Source: a virus
Direction: 5' to 3' (one strand)
IMG/VR virus record: IMGVR_UViG_3300042121_000056
Span: 1-37,108 of that record
Length of the DNA: 37,108 nt
Part shown: one piece after another, positions 28,025-36,516 of the stretch
Numbering within the stretch: the first letter of the stretch is position 1
How the letters are laid out: the number at the start of each line of letters is the position of its first letter
The notes under the pieces: model-generated
Told to the model about the DNA's origin: nothing
The model's database searches: none
What the model saw: only the letters and a program-made list of their open reading frames with translations
Made by a program: the position numbers and the translations under genes

Positions 28025-28599
28025 ACACCGTGAGATTCGCCAAGGGAGTCCAGCCGCTGCTGGTGCCAATCGACTCGGTGCACCAGCATGAGAGCAACCC
28101 CAACAATGCCGACCTCGATGCGCTGATTGAGTCCATTCAGGTCAACGGCTTCGTCACCGCCGTCACCGCCGACGCCAAGACCGGGAACATCCTCGCAGGC
28201 AACCACCGCTATCAGGCGCTCCACGCCTTGGGTGCCACCGAAATCCCGGTGATCTGGGTGGACCACATGGACGAGTCCGGAGCGGTGCGCTACCTCATTG
28301 GGGATAACAAGATAGGCAAGCTGGCGGTCCTCGACGAGCAGGCGGTCGCATCCCTGCTGACCGAACTGAACAACACCGACATCGGACTCGCCGGAACCGG
28401 CTACGACGAAACCACGTACCAGAACCTCCTGCTGGCGATGTCCATGGACCCGGTGATTCCGCAGGACCACGGCTTCGGCGTCGCCCCCTCCGGCATCTGG
28501 CAGGTGGTCGTGGACTTTGAGGATGAAGCCGAGCGGGACGACCTCTATGCGGAACTGGCCGACAGGTTCGAGGACAAGGCACGAACGGTGGACCTCTAG
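28021..28599 (+). CDS. ParB-like nuclease-domain protein
   Basis: 192 residues. Residues 14-80 (LVPIDSVHQHESNPNNADLDALIESIQVNGFVTAVTADAKTGNILAGNHRYQALHALG) carry the ParB/Srx N-terminal fold with the GNHR box in place of the usual GERR/GHRR, followed by VIWVDHMDESGAVRYLIGDNKIGKLAVLD. Proteins of this type precede terminase genes in many actinophages; they may act as nucleases, NTP-dependent clamps or partners of DNA modification enzymes. No methyltransferase is adjacent. Confidence 0.8.
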   Translation: MNTVRFAKGVQPLLVPIDSVHQHESNPNNADLDALIESIQVNGFVTAVTADAKTGNILAGNHRYQALHALGATEIPVIWVDHMDESGAVRYLIGDNKIGKLAVLDEQAVASLLTELNNTDIGLAGTGYDETTYQNLLLAMSMDPVIPQDHGFGVAPSGIWQVVVDFEDEAERDDLYAELADRFEDKARTVDL

Positions 28600-29138
28600 T
28601 GGGTGAGAGGGAAGCCCGGATCATGACCGGGGCCAAGGCGTTCGCCAAGGCGGTTGAGAACGGCGAGGAACCCAACGCCGACCTCGTCATTTCCGAGACG
28701 AACACCAAGGCCGAGTCCGCGGTGGCACTGCGCATCGCGGGCACCTCGTACACGAACATCGCCAAGACCCTCGGCTACGCCTCCGCCACAAGGGCGCGGC
28801 TCGCGGTGGAGCGGGTGCTGGCATCCTCTGCTGACTCCCCCGAGGAACGTGACCAGCAAAGGGTGCTTGCGGACAAGCGGCTGAACCGGCTGCTGCAGTC
28901 CGTCATGGGAAAGGCGGTGGACCCCACCGACCCGGACCACCTTGCCTACAACGCGAGGGCGCTGGCGATCACGGACAGGATCATGCGCCTCTGGGGCGTG
29001 GACGCTCCGACGCAGGTGCAGATCACCCCGACCGACGAACACCTGCAGCAGTACGTGGCGCACATGATGGCGCTGGCCCGGCAGGAACCCGAGGCCGAGG
29101 AAGCGAACATCATCGACGCCGACGTGGTGGAGGACTAG
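28599..29138 (+). CDS. Probable terminase small subunit
   Basis: 179 residues from GTG 28599 (TAGTG overlap) or 171 from ATG 28623. An HTH lies at about 46-74: VALRIAGTSYTNIAKTLGYASATRARLAVERVL. The middle is helical and the C-terminus acidic (EPEAEEANIIDADVVED). Position two genes before the large terminase and the N-terminal HTH fit a small subunit that recognises the packaging site, but no family match is certain. Confidence 0.6.
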   Translation: MGEREARIMTGAKAFAKAVENGEEPNADLVISETNTKAESAVALRIAGTSYTNIAKTLGYASATRARLAVERVLASSADSPEERDQQRVLADKRLNRLLQSVMGKAVDPTDPDHLAYNARALAITDRIMRLWGVDAPTQVQITPTDEHLQQYVAHMMALARQEPEAEEANIIDADVVED

Positions 29139-29140
29139 AG

Positions 29141-29530
29141 ATGGTCAACTACAACCCCGACCTGCAGGGCTGGGCCGACGCCGGGGAGGACCCGCAGTGG
29201 ATGGAGAATGCTCTCGCCCGTGTCCGGTCCCGGCAAAGGCAGTCCCGGGTTTCCGAGGGCCGCCGCTCGGGGATGTACGTCTACTTCAACGAACCCTTCC
29301 GGGCACTGCTGGATGAGGCAGCCGCCCGGCGCGACATGAGCATGGCCTCCTACATGCGCCGTGCCGTCGGCGCGTTCATCGCCCACGACCTGAACATCCC
29401 GTTTACTGAAGTGGTCAGGCACGGTGCGCAGCCGGTCCCGCACGGAGCAAAGACTGTCGGCAACAAACCCTCCTCCGACAACGGGCGCGGGAAGGGTCCG
29501 TGGCTGATCGAGGGGCTGAAGGAACTATAG
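29141..29530 (+). CDS. Ribbon-helix-helix-type protein
   Basis: 129 residues. RRSGMYVYFNEPFRALLDEAAARRDMSMASYMRRAVGAFIAHDLNIP is a strand-helix-helix typical of phage RHH proteins found before terminases. The C-terminal 40 residues are Gly/Lys/Pro-rich and probably disordered. May regulate the packaging/head operon or contribute to packaging-site recognition. Confidence 0.6.
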   Translation: MVNYNPDLQGWADAGEDPQWMENALARVRSRQRQSRVSEGRRSGMYVYFNEPFRALLDEAAARRDMSMASYMRRAVGAFIAHDLNIPFTEVVRHGAQPVPHGAKTVGNKPSSDNGRGKGPWLIEGLKEL

Positions 29531-29540
29531 GGAGGCAGTG

Positions 29541-31046
29541 ATGACCGCCACGCCGGAGCTTGATGTCAACGAATGGCGGAACTGGGACCAGAAGTCCAAG
29601 GACAAGCTGCTCGCCATGGTCGCCCTCGCGGAGAAGGACCGCAAGGTCTGGTACTGCACACGGGGTCCAAGCTGCGACGGACTGCCGCACGGCAAGTACG
29701 ACTACAAGCACGCCCGCGGCGACCAGTGGCCCCCGTCCGATCCGGACTGGCTGGTGTGGCTGCAGCGCGGCGGTCGTGGTTCGGGCAAGACCCGTTGTGG
29801 CTCGGAGTGGATTCGTAAGATGAGCGAGTCCATCGCCTTCACCTCCATCATCGGCCCGACCCTGCCCCACGTGCGCGACGTGATGGTGGAAGGGGAATCG
29901 GGACTGCTTGCCGCCTTCGACAACGCCAAGGTCAACGCCCTCTGGGAACCTTCCAAGCGCCGGATCACCCTGCCCGGACGCGGACGGCACAACGAGCACC
30001 GCATTCAGGCATTCACCGGCGAGGAACCCGACCGGCTCCGCGGCCCGAACCACGGCGCGGTGTGGCTGGATGAACCGGCCCACTATCCGATGATCGAAAC
30101 CGTCTGGGACATGATGATGCTGGGCCTGCGCTACGGCAAGCGCCCCTTGGTGCTGTGCACGACCACGCCGCTGCCGATCAAGTGGCTCAAGGACCTCATT
30201 GAGGAACCGACCACCCGCTCGGTCACGGTGTCCACCTACGCCAACATCGACAACCTCGCCCCCACCTTCCGCAAGGTCATCCTCGAAAAGTACGAGGGCA
30301 CCCGGATGGGCCGACAGGAACTCCACGGCGAAGTGCTGGAGGACATCGAGGGTGCGCTGTGGACGTGGGAGATGATCGAGAACAACCGCCCCCTGAACAC
30401 CGTGATTCGGCACGAGGACATGGACCGCATCGTCGTTGCCATCGACCCCGCCGGTACGTCCTCCAAGAAGCGTGACGAAACCGGAATCGTCGTCATTGGC
30501 CGCAAGGACGAGAGCTTCTATGTGCTCGCCGACCACTCCGGCCACTACACCCCCGACGGCTGGGCGGCGGAAGCGTGGCGGGCCTACGACCTGTATCAGG
30601 CAGACCTCATCGTTGCGGAGAAGAACTACGGCGGCGAGATGGTGCTCTCCACGCTGCGCACCAAGCGCAAGGACGGCAAAGTCGACCTCGTGCATTCCCG
30701 GCGCGGCAAGGTACTGCGCGCCGAACCCGTCGTCGGTTTGTATGAGCAGGGGCGCGTGCACCACGTGAAGATACTGACCGATCTGGAGTCCCAGATGACC
30801 GAATGGGTGCCGGACATGCAGGACTCGCCCGACCGCGTGGACGCGCTGGTGCACGGCATCACCAAGCTCAACGACAGTCTTGCCCCGGCGGAGCTTGCCT
30901 CTCCCGGCGGGAAGACCCTCAAGGGCGAACCGCTACAGACCGTCTTCCGCAACAGGGGAGGGCTGTTCGGATACCGTCCCCGTGACACCGACGCGACACC
31001 TGATGTTGACCCCGAGGCCACCGAACACGGAACGGCAGGCGGGTAA
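29541..31046 (+). CDS. terL: Terminase large subunit
   Basis: 501 residues from ATG 29541 (GGAGG five bases upstream). Residues 39-70 hold the family's N-terminal segment (CTRGPSCDGLPHGKYDYKHARGDQWPPSDPDW). ATPase: Walker A QRGGRGSGKT at 75-84, Walker B in GAVWLDEPAHY, and coupling motif CTTTPLP. RNase-H-like nuclease: VVAIDPAGTSS with the first catalytic Asp, ADLIVAEKNYGGEMV with Glu, and SPDRVDALVHGIT with the last Asp. It pumps DNA into the prohead and cuts the concatemer. Complete and of normal length. Confidence 0.95.
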   Translation: MTATPELDVNEWRNWDQKSKDKLLAMVALAEKDRKVWYCTRGPSCDGLPHGKYDYKHARGDQWPPSDPDWLVWLQRGGRGSGKTRCGSEWIRKMSESIAFTSIIGPTLPHVRDVMVEGESGLLAAFDNAKVNALWEPSKRRITLPGRGRHNEHRIQAFTGEEPDRLRGPNHGAVWLDEPAHYPMIETVWDMMMLGLRYGKRPLVLCTTTPLPIKWLKDLIEEPTTRSVTVSTYANIDNLAPTFRKVILEKYEGTRMGRQELHGEVLEDIEGALWTWEMIENNRPLNTVIRHEDMDRIVVAIDPAGTSSKKRDETGIVVIGRKDESFYVLADHSGHYTPDGWAAEAWRAYDLYQADLIVAEKNYGGEMVLSTLRTKRKDGKVDLVHSRRGKVLRAEPVVGLYEQGRVHHVKILTDLESQMTEWVPDMQDSPDRVDALVHGITKLNDSLAPAELASPGGKTLKGEPLQTVFRNRGGLFGYRPRDTDATPDVDPEATEHGTAGG

Positions 31047-31076
31047 TCCCTGATATGGCACGGTACGCTCGTACTC

Positions 31077-31388
31077 ATGGTGGAGATTTTCGTCGTACTC
31101 GCGGCTGTCGCCGTCGGCACGCTCTCCATCGCACGCATTACCCGGCTCATTACACAGGATAGCTTTCCGCCGTCGGCGTGGCTGCGCATGAAGTGGGACG
31201 AGTTGACCAACGACGGCCCGTGGTCGACGCTCGCACACTGTCACTGGTGCATGTCCGTCTGGATCACGCCGCCGATACTGCTCTGGGGCTGGTTGTCCGG
31301 CCTTCACATCACATGGTGGTTGTTCAACGGATGGATGGCCGCAGCATACGTCGCCGCCATGATCGTCGAAAGAGATGAAGTGGAGTAG
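31077..31388 (+). CDS. DUF1360-like membrane protein
   Basis: 103 residues. Membrane segments IFVVLAAVAVGTLSIARITRLI, VWITPPILLWGWLSGL and WWLFNGWMAAAYVAAMIV; between them RMKWDELTNDGPWSTLAHCHWCMSVW with the conserved HCxWC of DUF1360-type phage proteins. No ribosome site before the ATG; TACGCT lies seven bases upstream, so the gene may start as a leaderless mRNA. Found next to terminase/portal in many actinophages; function unknown. Confidence 0.7.
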   Translation: MVEIFVVLAAVAVGTLSIARITRLITQDSFPPSAWLRMKWDELTNDGPWSTLAHCHWCMSVWITPPILLWGWLSGLHITWWLFNGWMAAAYVAAMIVERDEVE

Positions 31389-31392
31389 CCCC

Positions 31393-33246
31393 ATGGCTCG
31401 CACCCGCAGGGAAGAAGCACCGCAGGCCAACTCTCTCGTCGCTTCGGCGGCGCGCATCGGCAAGAGCGGGCAGAGGAACTACACCCGGATCGCCGAGTCG
31501 ATCGTGTGGCAGCGCGAGGCGTGGCGGATGTATCACATCATCGGCGAGTTCCGGTACGCCTGCGACTTCATCGGCTCCATGCTCTCCAAGGCCGAACTGT
31601 TCGCCTCGGTGAAGAAGGCGGGCAAGCGCAGGCCGGTCAAGACCGGACCCGCCGTGGAAATCATGGAGTCCCTGTTCGTCGACGACGATGGGCGTGCGGA
31701 GATGCTGCGCCAAATCGGCATCCACATGTCCGTCGCGGGCGAGCTTTACGTCGTCTCCTATCCCAACCCCGACCGTTTCGGAGACGCCGGGGATGTCTGG
31801 GAAATCGCCACCCCCTCGGAAATCAACAAGGTCGAGGGCGGCAAGTGGCGGGTGAACAACAAGGTCATCGACCTCGACCCCGAAGATGTGCTCGTGATCC
31901 GCGTCTGGAGGCCGGACCCGGAGAAGCCGTGGCAGGCCATTTCCCCCGCGCAGGCGGTGCTGCCGATCCTCGGCGAAATCCATGGTCTGACCCAGCACGT
32001 TGCAGCGCAGATCGACTCCCGCCTTGCCGGAGCGGGCATCCTGCTTGTCCCCTCCGAGATGACCTTCCCGGCCCCGCCGCCCATCGAGGGTCAGGAGCAG
32101 CGGGTCGCCAACGACGCCGAGGGCCTGATGCGCGTGCTGGCCGAAGCGATGGAGGCGTCCATCGCCAACCGCGAGGATGCCTCGGCACTGGTGCCCATCG
32201 TCATCAAGGCTCCCGCCGAGGCCATCGCGGCGATCAAGCACCTGACCTTCTGGACCCAGCTGGACGAGCACGCCATCGAACTGCGGAACGAGGCCATCCG
32301 CCGCCTCGCCCTCGGCATGGACATCCCGCCCGAAGTCCTGCAGGGCCTGTCCGAATCCAACCACTGGTCCGCATGGGCCGCGGATGAATCCACCATCAAG
32401 GCCCACGCCGAACCGCTGCTCAAACTGGTCACCACCGCGCTCGCCTCCGGCTACCTGCGTCCGCTGCTTTCCGATGAAAGCGGGGTCGACGCCTCCGCGC
32501 TGCGCAGCTTCTCCATCAGCGCGGACACCTCCGAAATGCGGCTGCGGCCCAACCGCTCCAAGGAAGCGCTCGAACTGTACGACCGGGGCGAACTCAACGG
32601 CACTTCGCTGCGCCGCGAAACCGGCTTCGACGAGGACGACGCCCAGACCACCGAGGACCGCATCCTGTTCTACCTGCGCAAGGTGGCCTCCGGCTCCACT
32701 ACGCCGGAACTGGTCCACGCCGCGCTGCGCGAACTGGGCGTGGAACTGGAAGCCCCGGAACCGGCCAAGGAGGGCACCGAGGGCCGACCCGCCCCGTCCC
32801 TGCAGGACCACCCGGTCAACGACATGCCGGATTCGGAAATCTCCGAGCGACGCAGGCAGGCGCGGGAGCGCGGGGACGTTCCGTCATCCATGCCGGAGAA
32901 CCGCAACGCCGCCGCCCTGATCGCAGCCTCCGAGCAGGTCGTGGTCCGGGCGATGGAGCGTGCCGGGAACAAGCTGAAGAACAAGATGCAGGTGAAACCA
33001 ACCTGCGCTGCGGTGGACATCTACAAGTTCGTCAAGAGCGAGGACACTGCCTTCCTGCTCGATGACGCTTGGACGCACGTGGCCGCCATTGCTGAGCGGC
33101 ATCACATCCCGGCGGCATGGCTGGAGGGTGTGCTGGAAACCTACTGCACGCAGTTGCTGAAGGAGCAGACGCCGCACACCTTCAATAACTTCACCGTCTA
33201 CATGATGACCAACATGATGATCGCCGGAGAGAAGGTTCCCGCATGA
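31393..33246 (+). CDS. Portal protein
   Basis: 617 residues from ATG 31393 (GGAGTAG upstream). Typical actinophage portal features: N-terminal IGKSGQRNYTRIAESIVWQREAWRMYHIIGEFRYACDFIGSMLSKAELF, a central stem/clip region (WEIATPSEINKV...DLDPEDVLVIRVWRPDPEKPWQAISPAQAVLPILGEI), and HLTFWTQLDEHAIELRNEAIRRLALGMDIPPEVLQGLSESNHWSAW, a hallmark segment. The dodecameric portal is the DNA gate and the binding site of terminase. The last 150 residues, after a Pro/Glu linker, are helical. ATGA overlap with the MuF gene. Confidence 0.9.
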   Translation: MARTRREEAPQANSLVASAARIGKSGQRNYTRIAESIVWQREAWRMYHIIGEFRYACDFIGSMLSKAELFASVKKAGKRRPVKTGPAVEIMESLFVDDDGRAEMLRQIGIHMSVAGELYVVSYPNPDRFGDAGDVWEIATPSEINKVEGGKWRVNNKVIDLDPEDVLVIRVWRPDPEKPWQAISPAQAVLPILGEIHGLTQHVAAQIDSRLAGAGILLVPSEMTFPAPPPIEGQEQRVANDAEGLMRVLAEAMEASIANREDASALVPIVIKAPAEAIAAIKHLTFWTQLDEHAIELRNEAIRRLALGMDIPPEVLQGLSESNHWSAWAADESTIKAHAEPLLKLVTTALASGYLRPLLSDESGVDASALRSFSISADTSEMRLRPNRSKEALELYDRGELNGTSLRRETGFDEDDAQTTEDRILFYLRKVASGSTTPELVHAALRELGVELEAPEPAKEGTEGRPAPSLQDHPVNDMPDSEISERRRQARERGDVPSSMPENRNAAALIAASEQVVVRAMERAGNKLKNKMQVKPTCAAVDIYKFVKSEDTAFLLDDAWTHVAAIAERHHIPAAWLEGVLETYCTQLLKEQTPHTFNNFTVYMMTNMMIAGEKVPA

Positions 33247-36170
33247 TTCGCACCGACCGTTTCACGATCGACGTGGACACCTTTGCGGCGGAACGCCGCC
33301 GAATCCTCGAACGCTCCGACGAGCGCCTGACCGATCCGGTGCGCGCAGCCCTCACCCGGCTGGGTCTGCCCGGCTGGGAGGACGGCATCATCGCCGCCGC
33401 CTTGGACATCTTCGACGAAACCACCCGCGAGGAAATCGACGAGTGGAACCCCATCATCGACGACATGCGCGATGAGTTCGAGCGGGAACTGCGCGAAACC
33501 CTGCACAAGACCAAGCCCTCCGAGGAGGGTCAGTTCGACCATCAGGTCGAGCGCATGGTGCGCTGGCTCTCCACCTACTCGGTGAACGCCGGAACCGAAG
33601 CGGCCACCACCTCCGACCCGGACGGCGCGGTTGGGCTGGAGTGGGTGACCATGGGTGACAGTCATGTGCGGGAGACCCACGTGGAAACCAACGGGGAGAC
33701 AGTCCCCTCCGGCCAGCCCTTCGACGTCGCGGGATATGAACTTCTCTATCCGGGGCAACCAGTTGGCCCCCCCGAAATCTGGATCAACTGCCGATGTGTG
33801 TGTAGGCCGTATCTTTTGGATGAAGCGGCAGTAAAGTCTGACGCATGGAATACGAAGAAAGATTCTGGAGCAAAGTTCAGCCCGACGATGACGGATGCCT
33901 CCTCTGGACAGCAGCGGTTGACAGCACCGGCTACGGCAAATGGACCGTCAACGGCCTCGGGACCTTCAAGGCTCACCGTTGGGCATGGGCAGAGCGATAT
34001 GGGAGCGTTCCTGACCAACTCGACCACCTATGCCACACCCGCGCAGTTGCCGAGGGAAAGTGTCGTGGTGGACGGTGCAAGCACCGACTCTGTGTCAATC
34101 CAGATCACCTTGAACCCGCGACCCCACTCCAACAGGCTGAGCGACGGGTCAAGCCGCCCATCGGAGGATTCAATGGCAACGGACTCAAAACCCACTGCGC
34201 CAAAGGCCACCTTTACGACGAGCGAAACACCCGCTGGAGCAGGCGAGGAGACGGAAGCAGGTTCCGGCAGTGCCGTGAATGCGAGCGCATTCGCACCCAC
34301 GCCCGGCGGAAACCCGGCGTCCGAGGCCCCAAGCGCCGGGACGTTTGGGGCCAGCCCAGAGAGTGACACGCCGGAGGAAGACGACGACGCGCCGATGGTT
34401 CCGTCCGAGGAAGAGTTCGAGCCGGTGCCGTGGTACGGCGTCCTAGCTCCCGAAGGTGTCCCGTCCGGGGATGGCCGATCCTTTACTACGGGCGGGCTGA
34501 GCTACCGCGAACTGCCCCTGCCGTTGAAGGCAATGTTCACCGACGACGAGGGCCACAAGGGGTCTGTCATCGTGGGCCGCATCGACCGCATCTGGCGCGA
34601 AGAGGGCCTCGTCAAGGGTGAGGGTGTGTTCGATTCCTCCGACGCCGCCTACGAAACGGTGCGCATGCTGGCTGAAGGCATGTGGCGTGGCGTGTCGGTG
34701 GATATTGACGACATGCAGGCGCAACTGTCCGAGGATGGCGAAAGCATGGAGGCCAGCGGGCGTATCTGCGCCGCCACCATCTGTGCCATTCCTGCTTTTT
34801 CCGAGGCTTTCGTCCAGATCGGAACATGGGCAGACGCCGGGGGGGTGTTGGACGACCAACAGCCCCCCGAGGAGTTCGCCGTTTCACGTGGAACGTTCGT
34901 CTCCGAATCTCCGTGGGACGGCAGCGCTTCGAGGTTCAGCGAGGAACAGTGGAAGCGCTCCTGCATCCTCCACGTCTGCGACGGCATGGAGAAGTCCTGC
35001 CACAAGCTGCCCATCCGGGAGCCGGGCGGTGCGCTTTCCCGCGCCGGAGTGCACGCCGCTGCCGGTCGCATCGGGCAGGCACAGGCATCCCCCGAGCAGA
35101 TTTCCGCGGCCAAGGCCAAGCTTCGCGGAGCCTACAAGGAACTTGGGGAAACGCCCCCTGAGAGCCTGACCGCCGGAGCGCCGATCATCACCCGTGACGG
35201 CCCCGGCTGGTGGACCAATCCAAAGGACACCGAGCGCATCACCGACTACTGGGTCCACGGGCCGGGGGCTGCCAAGATTCGGTGGTCAGCACCGGGGGAT
35301 TTCAATAGATGCCGCAGGCAGCTAATCAAGTACGTCCAGAACCCGAAATGGCTGGCGGGACTCTGTGCCAACCTCCATTACCGGGCACTCGGTATTTGGC
35401 CGGGCCAGCATTCAGGAAAGGTGCAGGACATGACACTCACCGCATCGGCAGGCACAGTGCTCTCCGCGGACTGGTTCAAGAACCCCAACCTCCCCGGCCC
35501 CACGCCGTTCACGGTCACGGACGAGGGTCGCGTGTACGGGCACGTCGCCACATGGGACACCTGCCACATCGGCCTGCCTATCGGGGACGAGGAAGGCGAG
35601 TGCACCACCGCGCCGCACTCGGGAGCCAATTACGCCTTCTTCCTGACCGGCGAAGTCCAGACCGACCTCGGCCCGGTGGCGGTCGGGCAGATCACCATGG
35701 GCGGAGGGCATGCCGATCACCGCGCAGGGTTCCGGGCCGCGATCAGCCACTACGACTCCACCTCCACCGCCGTCGCGGATGTGACCGCGGGCGAGGATGA
35801 CCATGGAATCTGGGTGGCAGGAGCGCTGCGCTCCACACTGACCGCGGAGCAGGTGCACGAACTGCGCGCTGCGGCGCTTTCCGGAGACTGGCGCACAGTG
35901 AAGGTGGGGACCGATGACCTCGAAATGATCGCAGCCCTCGCAGTGAATGTTCCCGGCTTCCCGATCCCGCGGCCCTCGATGCTGGTTGCCTCCAGCGGGC
36001 GTCCGGTGTCGCTGATAGCGGCCTCGATTCCGCTGGCAGAAGGTCAGGATGCCGGGGATACGGTGGAGATACCTACGACTCCGGCGGAGAAGTTCAACAT
36101 TGTGCGCTCCAAGTTCCGGCAATTGCAGGTTGCACGGGCCAAGGCCGCATTTAGCGAAGCAAGGGGATAG
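33243..36170 (+). CDS. MuF / capsid maturation protease fusion with internal overlapping gene
   Basis: 975 residues. 1-195: MuF-like head morphogenesis domain (helical, DHQVERMVRWLSTYSVNAGT, VTMGDSHVRETHVETNGETV, ending INCRCVCRPYL). About 202-374: low-complexity Ser/Thr/Pro/Ala linker that is the alternate frame of the HNH gene at 33845. About 384-540: capsid protease domain (VPWYGVLAPEGVPSGDGRSF...KGSVIVGRIDRIWREEGLVKGEGVF...MWRGVSVDIDD). 533-542 (GGVLDDQQPP) is palindrome copy 18. 557-640: DUF6582-like (WKRSCILHVCD...CHKLPIREPGGALSRAGVHAAAGRIGQA). 655-720: DGPGWWTNP...HYRALGIWPG. 735-975: a conserved actinophage domain (FKNPNLPGPTPFTVTDEGRVYGHVATWDTCHIG). An ATG at 34395 could start a separate protease. 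Fusions of MuF and protease are known; this interruption is not. Confidence 0.85.
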   Translation: MIRTDRFTIDVDTFAAERRRILERSDERLTDPVRAALTRLGLPGWEDGIIAAALDIFDETTREEIDEWNPIIDDMRDEFERELRETLHKTKPSEEGQFDHQVERMVRWLSTYSVNAGTEAATTSDPDGAVGLEWVTMGDSHVRETHVETNGETVPSGQPFDVAGYELLYPGQPVGPPEIWINCRCVCRPYLLDEAAVKSDAWNTKKDSGAKFSPTMTDASSGQQRLTAPATANGPSTASGPSRLTVGHGQSDMGAFLTNSTTYATPAQLPRESVVVDGASTDSVSIQITLNPRPHSNRLSDGSSRPSEDSMATDSKPTAPKATFTTSETPAGAGEETEAGSGSAVNASAFAPTPGGNPASEAPSAGTFGASPESDTPEEDDDAPMVPSEEEFEPVPWYGVLAPEGVPSGDGRSFTTGGLSYRELPLPLKAMFTDDEGHKGSVIVGRIDRIWREEGLVKGEGVFDSSDAAYETVRMLAEGMWRGVSVDIDDMQAQLSEDGESMEASGRICAATICAIPAFSEAFVQIGTWADAGGVLDDQQPPEEFAVSRGTFVSESPWDGSASRFSEEQWKRSCILHVCDGMEKSCHKLPIREPGGALSRAGVHAAAGRIGQAQASPEQISAAKAKLRGAYKELGETPPESLTAGAPIITRDGPGWWTNPKDTERITDYWVHGPGAAKIRWSAPGDFNRCRRQLIKYVQNPKWLAGLCANLHYRALGIWPGQHSGKVQDMTLTASAGTVLSADWFKNPNLPGPTPFTVTDEGRVYGHVATWDTCHIGLPIGDEEGECTTAPHSGANYAFFLTGEVQTDLGPVAVGQITMGGGHADHRAGFRAAISHYDSTSTAVADVTAGEDDHGIWVAGALRSTLTAEQVHELRAAALSGDWRTVKVGTDDLEMIAALAVNVPGFPIPRPSMLVASSGRPVSLIAASIPLAEGQDAGDTVEIPTTPAEKFNIVRSKFRQLQVARAKAAFSEARG
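33845..34366 (+). CDS. HNH endonuclease nested in another frame of the MuF/protease gene
   Basis: 173 residues, shifted frame, wholly inside the 975-codon gene. Motifs in order: ERFWSKVQPDDDGCLLWTAAVDSTGYGKW, AHRWAWAERYGSVPDQLDHLCH (AHR and catalytic DH), CVNPDHLEPATPLQQAERR (N and H), and a C-terminal zinc knuckle CAKGHLYDERNT...FRQCREC. It has every feature of a phage HNH and is better supported by homology pattern than the outer frame here. No ribosome site; TAAAGT lies seven bases before the ATG, a possible leaderless promoter. Likely a homing insertion that kept the outer frame open. Confidence 0.85.
   Translation: MEYEERFWSKVQPDDDGCLLWTAAVDSTGYGKWTVNGLGTFKAHRWAWAERYGSVPDQLDHLCHTRAVAEGKCRGGRCKHRLCVNPDHLEPATPLQQAERRVKPPIGGFNGNGLKTHCAKGHLYDERNTRWSRRGDGSRFRQCRECERIRTHARRKPGVRGPKRRDVWGQPRE
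34839..34868. repeat. Dispersed palindrome, copy 18, only copy in the rightward arm
   Basis: Core TGTTGG-ACGA-CCAACA (34846-34861) in the MuF/protease gene, read as GVLDDQQPP on the plus strand. Confidence 0.9.
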
Positions 36171-36175
36171 CGGAT

Positions 36176-36319
36176 ATGGGATGCAACTGCGGATCGAAGA
36201 AGGCTGGCAAGGAAAGCTTCAAGGTGACCTTCGCCGATGGCACTACCAAGGTCGTCAGTTCCGAAACGGAAGCGCGGGCGGCGGTTGCCCGGCGTGGCGG
36301 TAGCTACGTTAAGCAGTGA
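36176..36319 (+). CDS. Small Cys-containing phage protein
   Basis: 47 residues; AAGGGGA upstream of the ATG. MGCNCGSKK at the start and FKVTFADGTTKVVSSETEARAAVARRGGSYVKQ match a short protein (about 45-60 aa) that commonly follows the protease or precedes the capsid gene in actinophages. The N-terminal CxC could bind metal. Function unknown. Confidence 0.75.
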   Translation: MGCNCGSKKAGKESFKVTFADGTTKVVSSETEARAAVARRGGSYVKQ

Positions 36320-36373
36320 CAGGCTAGAGTGAGGCTTGCTGAACCAAACAGCTGAGCCTCCTCTCGGGTGGGT

Positions 36374-36406
36374 GAACACGCCGTCCACATCATGGACGGC
36401 GTGTTC
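36374..36406 (+). terminator. Strong terminator before the capsid gene
   Basis: Perfect 14-base stem (36374-36387, GAACACGCCGTCCA; 36393-36406), 5-base loop, followed by TTGTTTCCTCTACTCTT. The best rho-independent terminator in the window; it lets the capsid gene be controlled separately. Confidence 0.85.
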
Positions 36407-36516
36407 TTGTTTCCTCTACTCTTGTCGCAGCGGGACACTCTCCTTTGGCCGTAGGCCGTGTGTCGATTTGTAGCACCTCCACACGTACCTGCGTCCCCCA
36501 TAAAGGAGAAATCGCC
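36407..36516 (+). promoter_or_regulatory. Leader of the capsid gene
   Basis: 110 non-coding bases between the terminator and the capsid start, ending in AAAGGAG eight bases... before the ATG. A promoter is expected because of the terminator, but no convincing -35/-10 pair is seen. Confidence 0.4.

Follow-up and report, generated by a model that had tools for sequence, protein, structure and literature searches.

HNH endonuclease genes nested out of frame in the linkers of phage MuF/protease genes: a candidate splice-free homing element

Introduction

Homing endonucleases are generally considered to invade essential genes in one of two main ways, by bringing a splicing device along or by splitting the gene. 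The closest precedent for another arrangement is the ShiLan domain, an out-of-frame HNH reported in 2025 in a mycobacteriophage methylase gene (PMC11855218). Its authors suggested leaderless translation of the HNH without naming a promoter motif, and the gene that hosts it is dispensable (PMC11855218). A second precedent concerns the host protein: in MuF polyvalent proteins, the domains fused to MuF can be exchanged, and 2H phosphoesterases are among them (Iyer et al. 2017, PMC5512222). Here we analyze a phage gene in which these two themes meet, an HNH gene lying out of frame between the MuF and protease parts of a head-assembly gene, together with its relatives with and without an HNH.

Results

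A complete HNH gene inside a MuF/protease gene

The virus record analyzed (the window, meaning the whole stretch of DNA) has 37,108 bases. On its plus strand, positions 33243 to 36170 encode a fusion of MuF and capsid-maturation protease of 975 aa, referred to below as the outer gene. This ORF matches head-morphogenesis and portal-protease families in a family search, and homologous fused genes are annotated in Arthrobacter and Microbacterium phages; a scan of the genome contigs with the outer alignment returned no relatives. The MuF domain (aa 1–190; 33243–33812) ends in a conserved WINCRC motif and is modeled as helices and strands, confidently over most of the domain, while the protease domain (aa 395–530; 34425–34832) is predicted by the model to adopt an assemblin or T4 gp21-like fold. 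The outer gene is taken to be essential by inference from the family to which it belongs, MuF plus a capsid-maturation protease.

Between these domains, in the third frame relative to the outer gene and on the same strand, lies an HNH endonuclease gene of 173 aa (33845–34366). The protein matches PHROG 826 over nearly its full length (residues 3–163, E=1.4e-38) and Pfam HNH_3 above the family cut-off (1e-6). Family alignment identifies the catalytic residues H61, N85 and H88 (34025–34108) and the zinc-ribbon residues C118, H122, C143 and C146, and membership in the two families is met by full-length profile, His-Asn-His and zinc-ribbon residues alike. Its structure model has a mean pLDDT of 83; a Foldseek search of this model against the PDB gave no significant match, and a profile search with the HNH gave only weak matches, I-HmuI and I-PpoI among these. 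Free-standing phage HNHs, such as those of Clavibacter phage CN1A and Arthrobacter phage Colucci, are 36–40% identical to it. Two further HNH-family ORFs, neither of them nested, occur on the minus strand of the same contig (3876–4316 and 15428–15787), giving this phage at least three HNH genes. A programmed frameshift from MuF into the HNH, yielding a MuF-HNH fusion, was considered and is blocked in the window by a stop codon, TGA, which lies in the frame of the HNH shortly upstream of its ATG (33839–33841).

The preliminary description of this DNA had claimed a complete HNH gene out of frame in the MuF/protease gene, an outer frame open across it, and a Ser/Thr/Pro/Ala linker encoded there. 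The first claim is borne out by the near-full-length family matches and the presence of the HNH residues, and the second by the absence of any stop in the 975-aa ORF. For the third, Ser, Thr, Pro, Ala and Gly make up 62% of the outer peptide over the HNH, and order-promoting residues are few. The whole outer-frame linker (aa 194–389; 33822–34409) is rich in these five residues and predicted to be disordered; it is modeled without secondary structure at a pLDDT of about 26–47 by block, a low confidence that comes partly from the lack of homologues there.

Relatives define the borders of the segment

A sibling contig, L013, shares 94.8% DNA identity with the window in MuF and has no HNH. In a blastn comparison of the two, homology stops at 33823 and restarts at 34356. 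The segment without homology, 33824–34355 on the plus strand, is therefore inserted or replaced DNA; it measures 532 nt in the window versus 565 nt in the sibling slot, and the HNH stop codon sits at its right border. A comparison with HNH-free homologues had been predicted to place the borders near 33840 and 34390, which is close to what we measured.

The sibling slot (about 5600–6150 in L013) contains two HxT motifs, a weak match to 2_5_RNA_ligase2 and a match to an RNA-ligase PHROG, and on these features it is a 2H-phosphoesterase-like domain. The same type of domain occurs in Arthrobacter phage genes (L002–L008) and in Microbacterium phages, and is possibly an injected anti-defence or RNA-processing domain. 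The earlier claim of an insertion is supported, as HNH-free homologues do give borders, but it needs refining: relative to the nearest sibling the event is locally a replacement, with the HNH in the place of the 2H-like domain. Plain insertion also occurs, since the slot of another contig, L299, contains a homologous HNH element with the 2H domain retained downstream. A homologue with the same linker but without the HNH frame, which would have argued against insertion, was sought and none was found.

At the HNH slot, six relatives (L014, L015, L017, L020, L022 and L024) have a short linker only, and close relatives were seen to swap the 2H-phosphoesterase-like domain for such a linker. Across the 64 genes in which both anchors were found, the length of the MuF-protease slot is bimodal, about 40–110 aa or 160–300 aa, and among the long slots the two HxT motifs are missing only in the window and in L142. 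With short, 2H-containing and HNH-containing versions and these bimodal lengths, the slot evidently tolerates domain exchange. The slot of L142 carries a recurrent module of unknown function (EGRRTPEVVxKG...GKVVKRRAAT), which is also present just after the hidden HNH of L294.

Directly left of the insert, seven substitutions relative to L013 are clustered within 25 nt (33797–33821, plus strand), against an upstream background of about 4%. This cluster may be a co-conversion tract or may reflect protection from self-cutting, and the question is unresolved. The left flank, LLDEAAVKS, resembles the LDEAAxKT ends of the SilentRX and AWGoat genes. Its acquisition from another MuF lineage by co-conversion is no more than an idea, suggested by this resemblance and the substitution cluster.

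Nested HNH genes recur in four linkers

An HNH profile was run in six frames over 239 loci, corresponding to about 170 distinct MuF/protease genes. Six nested HNHs were found, including that of the window, in six different metagenome datasets, four linkers and both strands; all are on metagenomic contigs. The MuF-protease slot is occupied in sense by the window HNH, in sense and with the same frame relation by that of L299 (5558–6010), and in antisense by that of L294 (1258–1701, minus strand). The remaining cases lie between the protease and a WDGSASRF domain (L024, 6202–6648, sense), before a DGPGW domain (L259, 4232–4966, minus strand, antisense) and before the C-terminal domain (L311, 3108–3560, sense). 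In L212, too, a frame is open across the HNH, but this case was not counted because the outer ORF does not resemble a gene.

Two properties expected of homing elements are met. Present and absent alleles exist at one site in related genomes: L013 has no HNH where the window has one, relatives of L259 (L268 and L269, about 82–85% DNA identity) have a clean gap of about 735 nt, which is the length of the L259 HNH ORF, and a similarly clean gap is seen in relatives of L311. In addition, homologous elements have entered one site in genomes that are divergent, as the HNHs of L299 and the window share 41% identity (E=5e-35) and a C-terminal tail, THxRRKPGVRGPKRxDxW. Judged from the two sequences, this likeness fits the expectation for a site-specific homing element.

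HNH genes are also found directly beside MuF/protease genes (L098, L254, L300, L320, L322, L327, L329 and L334), and the surroundings of this gene look like a hotspot of HNH invasion. Outside this family, HNH matches overlap the annotated ribonucleotide reductase alpha subunit in phage records PQ867851 and MZ089731, which may be split or nested cases. A search of isolates with chimeric queries gave no record with a coverage of 80% or more, and none combined MuF, HNH and protease; the high-ranking BayC and Funsized have no HNH at the slot. A DNA search with the junction sequence found no match in phages.

A -10-like box precedes most nested HNH genes

No Shine-Dalgarno sequence was found before the window HNH. 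A -10-like box of the form TANNNT, TAAAGT (33832–33837, plus strand), lies 7 nt before its ATG and is a candidate leaderless promoter, its function being inferred. Similar boxes precede the ATG in L024 (TAGGCT, 6 nt), L299 and L294 (TATGAT, 6 nt in both) and L311 (TACCAT, 5 nt); L259 is the exception, with a strong Shine-Dalgarno sequence, AAGGAGG, before a GTG start. A TANNNT box 5–7 nt before the ATG is thus present in 5/6 nested HNHs versus 0.35% of the ATGs inside these genes (P about 3e-12). The hypothesis was drawn from two cases, the window and L024, and then met by three found later, although the spacing window of 5–7 was widened by one to take in L311. HNH homologues in general show a weaker enrichment, with 10 in-frame starts at spacing 6–7 versus about 1 per neighboring spacing.

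Most mycobacterial promoters have TANNNT as their -10 motif, centered 7–12 nt upstream of the start site (PMC3898074). Given this position relative to the start site, a transcript beginning at the ATG would be a leaderless mRNA. The arrangement suggests that the nested HNHs with a box are expressed leaderless from their own promoter of the actinobacterial -10 type, a reading based on motif and spacing alone.

The outer frame is open where most other HNH genes have stops

If the HNH were a chance passenger, GC-rich DNA would simply leave frames open, read-through would be accidental and no selection would act on the linker. Random recoding of the HNH protein with its own codon usage leaves some room for this, the outer frame remaining open in 27% of trials, as does the antisense frame of HNH genes, which is open in 14/89. 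Yet the equivalent of the window's outer frame is open in 0/89 GC-rich non-nested HNH homologues, and nearly all of the non-nested homologues examined have stops in both alternative sense frames; recoding with the codon usage of the phage's structural genes left the frame open in 2–4%. As far as these gene comparisons go, GC-rich HNH genes do not routinely leave such an outer frame open. It is open in all six nested cases, whereas the same frames are open in 0, 0, 1, 1, 14 and 14 of the 89.

The outer peptide of the window is also unusual in its net charge per residue, which is -0.03 (rank 0 of 89; control mean +0.11), and the six nested cases all fall at the low end (ranks 0, 4, 0, 9, 1 and 0 of 89; Fisher p about 1e-5). 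Under own-codon-usage recoding the charge of the window is not unusual (P=0.39). Because this control reproduces both charge and, in 27%, openness, the argument that the outer peptide is under selection depends on the comparison with free-standing HNHs and on the other nested cases. Nesting is furthermore concentrated in the linkers of one gene family, and we consider a chance passenger improbable, if not to be dismissed out of hand.

The linker might also remain untranslated, with the protease starting on its own near 34395 and MuF and protease made as separate products. An ATG is present at 34395, and a purine-rich GGAGGA occurs at about 34373, too far upstream for normal spacing. There is, however, no stop between MuF and protease. 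The methionine at 34395 is not conserved (it is absent from L020, L022 and L027), these relatives are clear fusions, and related phages as a rule have the fused gene. From these alignments, a separate protease start at 34395 seems quite unlikely.

HNH genes are often carried in group I introns or inteins, so the segment could be one that is removed from the mRNA or protein, with the HNH as its homing gene. The segment barely exceeds the length of the ORF, so that an intron core would not fit in it, and the L259 insert is likewise about as long as its ORF. An Rfam scan gave no intron match, and a domain search of the outer protein found no intein domain, only MuF. The intron core RNA or splicing domain that would place the segment among such elements is therefore missing, and this explanation is barely tenable. 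The proposal that the insertion was tolerated by frame preservation, not self-splicing, withstands this comparison, and in the absence of an intron family or intein domain it is the best reading.

Finally, an assembly chimera of a MuF/protease gene with an unrelated HNH gene is hardly credible: invaded and uninvaded alleles do share one dataset (3300042531, the source of both L012 and L013), but the contig L012 is 100% identical to the window over positions 28243–36481, though perhaps from the same reads, and L299, from an unrelated sample, has a homologous HNH at the same site and in the same frame.

Discussion

From the observed anatomy, borders, uninvaded alleles, recurrence, open outer frame of unusual composition and enrichment of -10 boxes, we propose, with a probability of roughly 0.85, that the locus holds a splice-free homing element, an HNH gene in the MuF-protease linker with the host frame kept open. 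An HNH homing-endonuclease gene with its -10 box would have entered the flexible linker that directly follows the WINCRC end of MuF, and would have survived because the DNA between the flanks adds up to whole codons and contains no stop in the host frame. Expression of both products is inferred: ribosomes from the MuF start would read through to give MuF, a disordered linker and the protease, and the HNH protein would be a separate product with a start of its own, probably translated from a leaderless transcript whose 5' end is at the ATG or close to it. DNA cutting and homing are inferences as well, in which the HNH would cut HNH-free alleles near conserved MuF (domain-edge) sequence, and repair of the cut would give these alleles a copy of the element. 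Surviving insertions would be those leaving the outer frame intact, and selection would later keep the outer peptide harmless; that the linker is incorporated into virions is again only inferred.

We lean, with appreciably less assurance, toward a wider statement: actinophage MuF/protease genes probably host recurrent, splice-free, dual-coded homing elements, in sense or antisense, that target conserved domain edges, occupy interdomain linkers as whole stop-free host codons, carry their own leaderless promoter and have their host-frame peptide molded into a harmless virion spacer.

For the entry of homing endonucleases, the six cases found in a single head-assembly gene point to a third route, by a tolerant linker and an open host frame. 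How a hidden HNH is expressed was left open for ShiLan, and a -10 box at the start codon would be a concrete answer. Selection on both frames is measurable in such doubly read sequences. There is also a warning for annotation, as a gene caller giving one protein per locus would miss hidden HNHs.

Our literature search found no description of HNHs nested in MuF/protease genes, many subscription papers being outside its reach. Compared with known systems, the free-standing phage HNHs of CN1A and Colucci belong to the same protein family as the window HNH but occupy their own loci. The MuF polyvalent proteins (PMC5512222) have exchangeable 2H domains, as do L013 and the Arthrobacter phages, but those domains are in frame, whereas the window slot holds an out-of-frame endonuclease gene. 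Pacc40 gp60 also has an out-of-frame HNH-like ORF and a disordered host-frame peptide, and related free-standing HNHs adjoin related methylases just as HNHs adjoin several MuF/protease genes; its host gene is different, a methylase gene, and its authors call the HNH identity less certain (PMC11855218).

The likeness to ShiLan is closest. The features of that type (an HNH ORF that fills the insert out of frame, an open host ORF, no self-splicing intron or intein) are all met here, with the HNH in the third frame in both. The ShiLan HNH starts 18 bp into the insert and stops in its last four bases; that of the window starts 21 bp in and stops within about 11 nt of the right border. In both, the host-frame peptide is unstructured and a patchy distribution suggests homing. 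ShiLan, however, concerns one site in a methylase, and its GTG has TATGAA 5 nt upstream, which is not TANNNT. What is new relative to that precedent is the head-assembly host, the recurrence (six cases in four linkers), the use of both orientations (two cases being antisense), the empty sites, and the -10 boxes, with TANNNT 5–7 nt before the start in five of the six MuF/protease cases.
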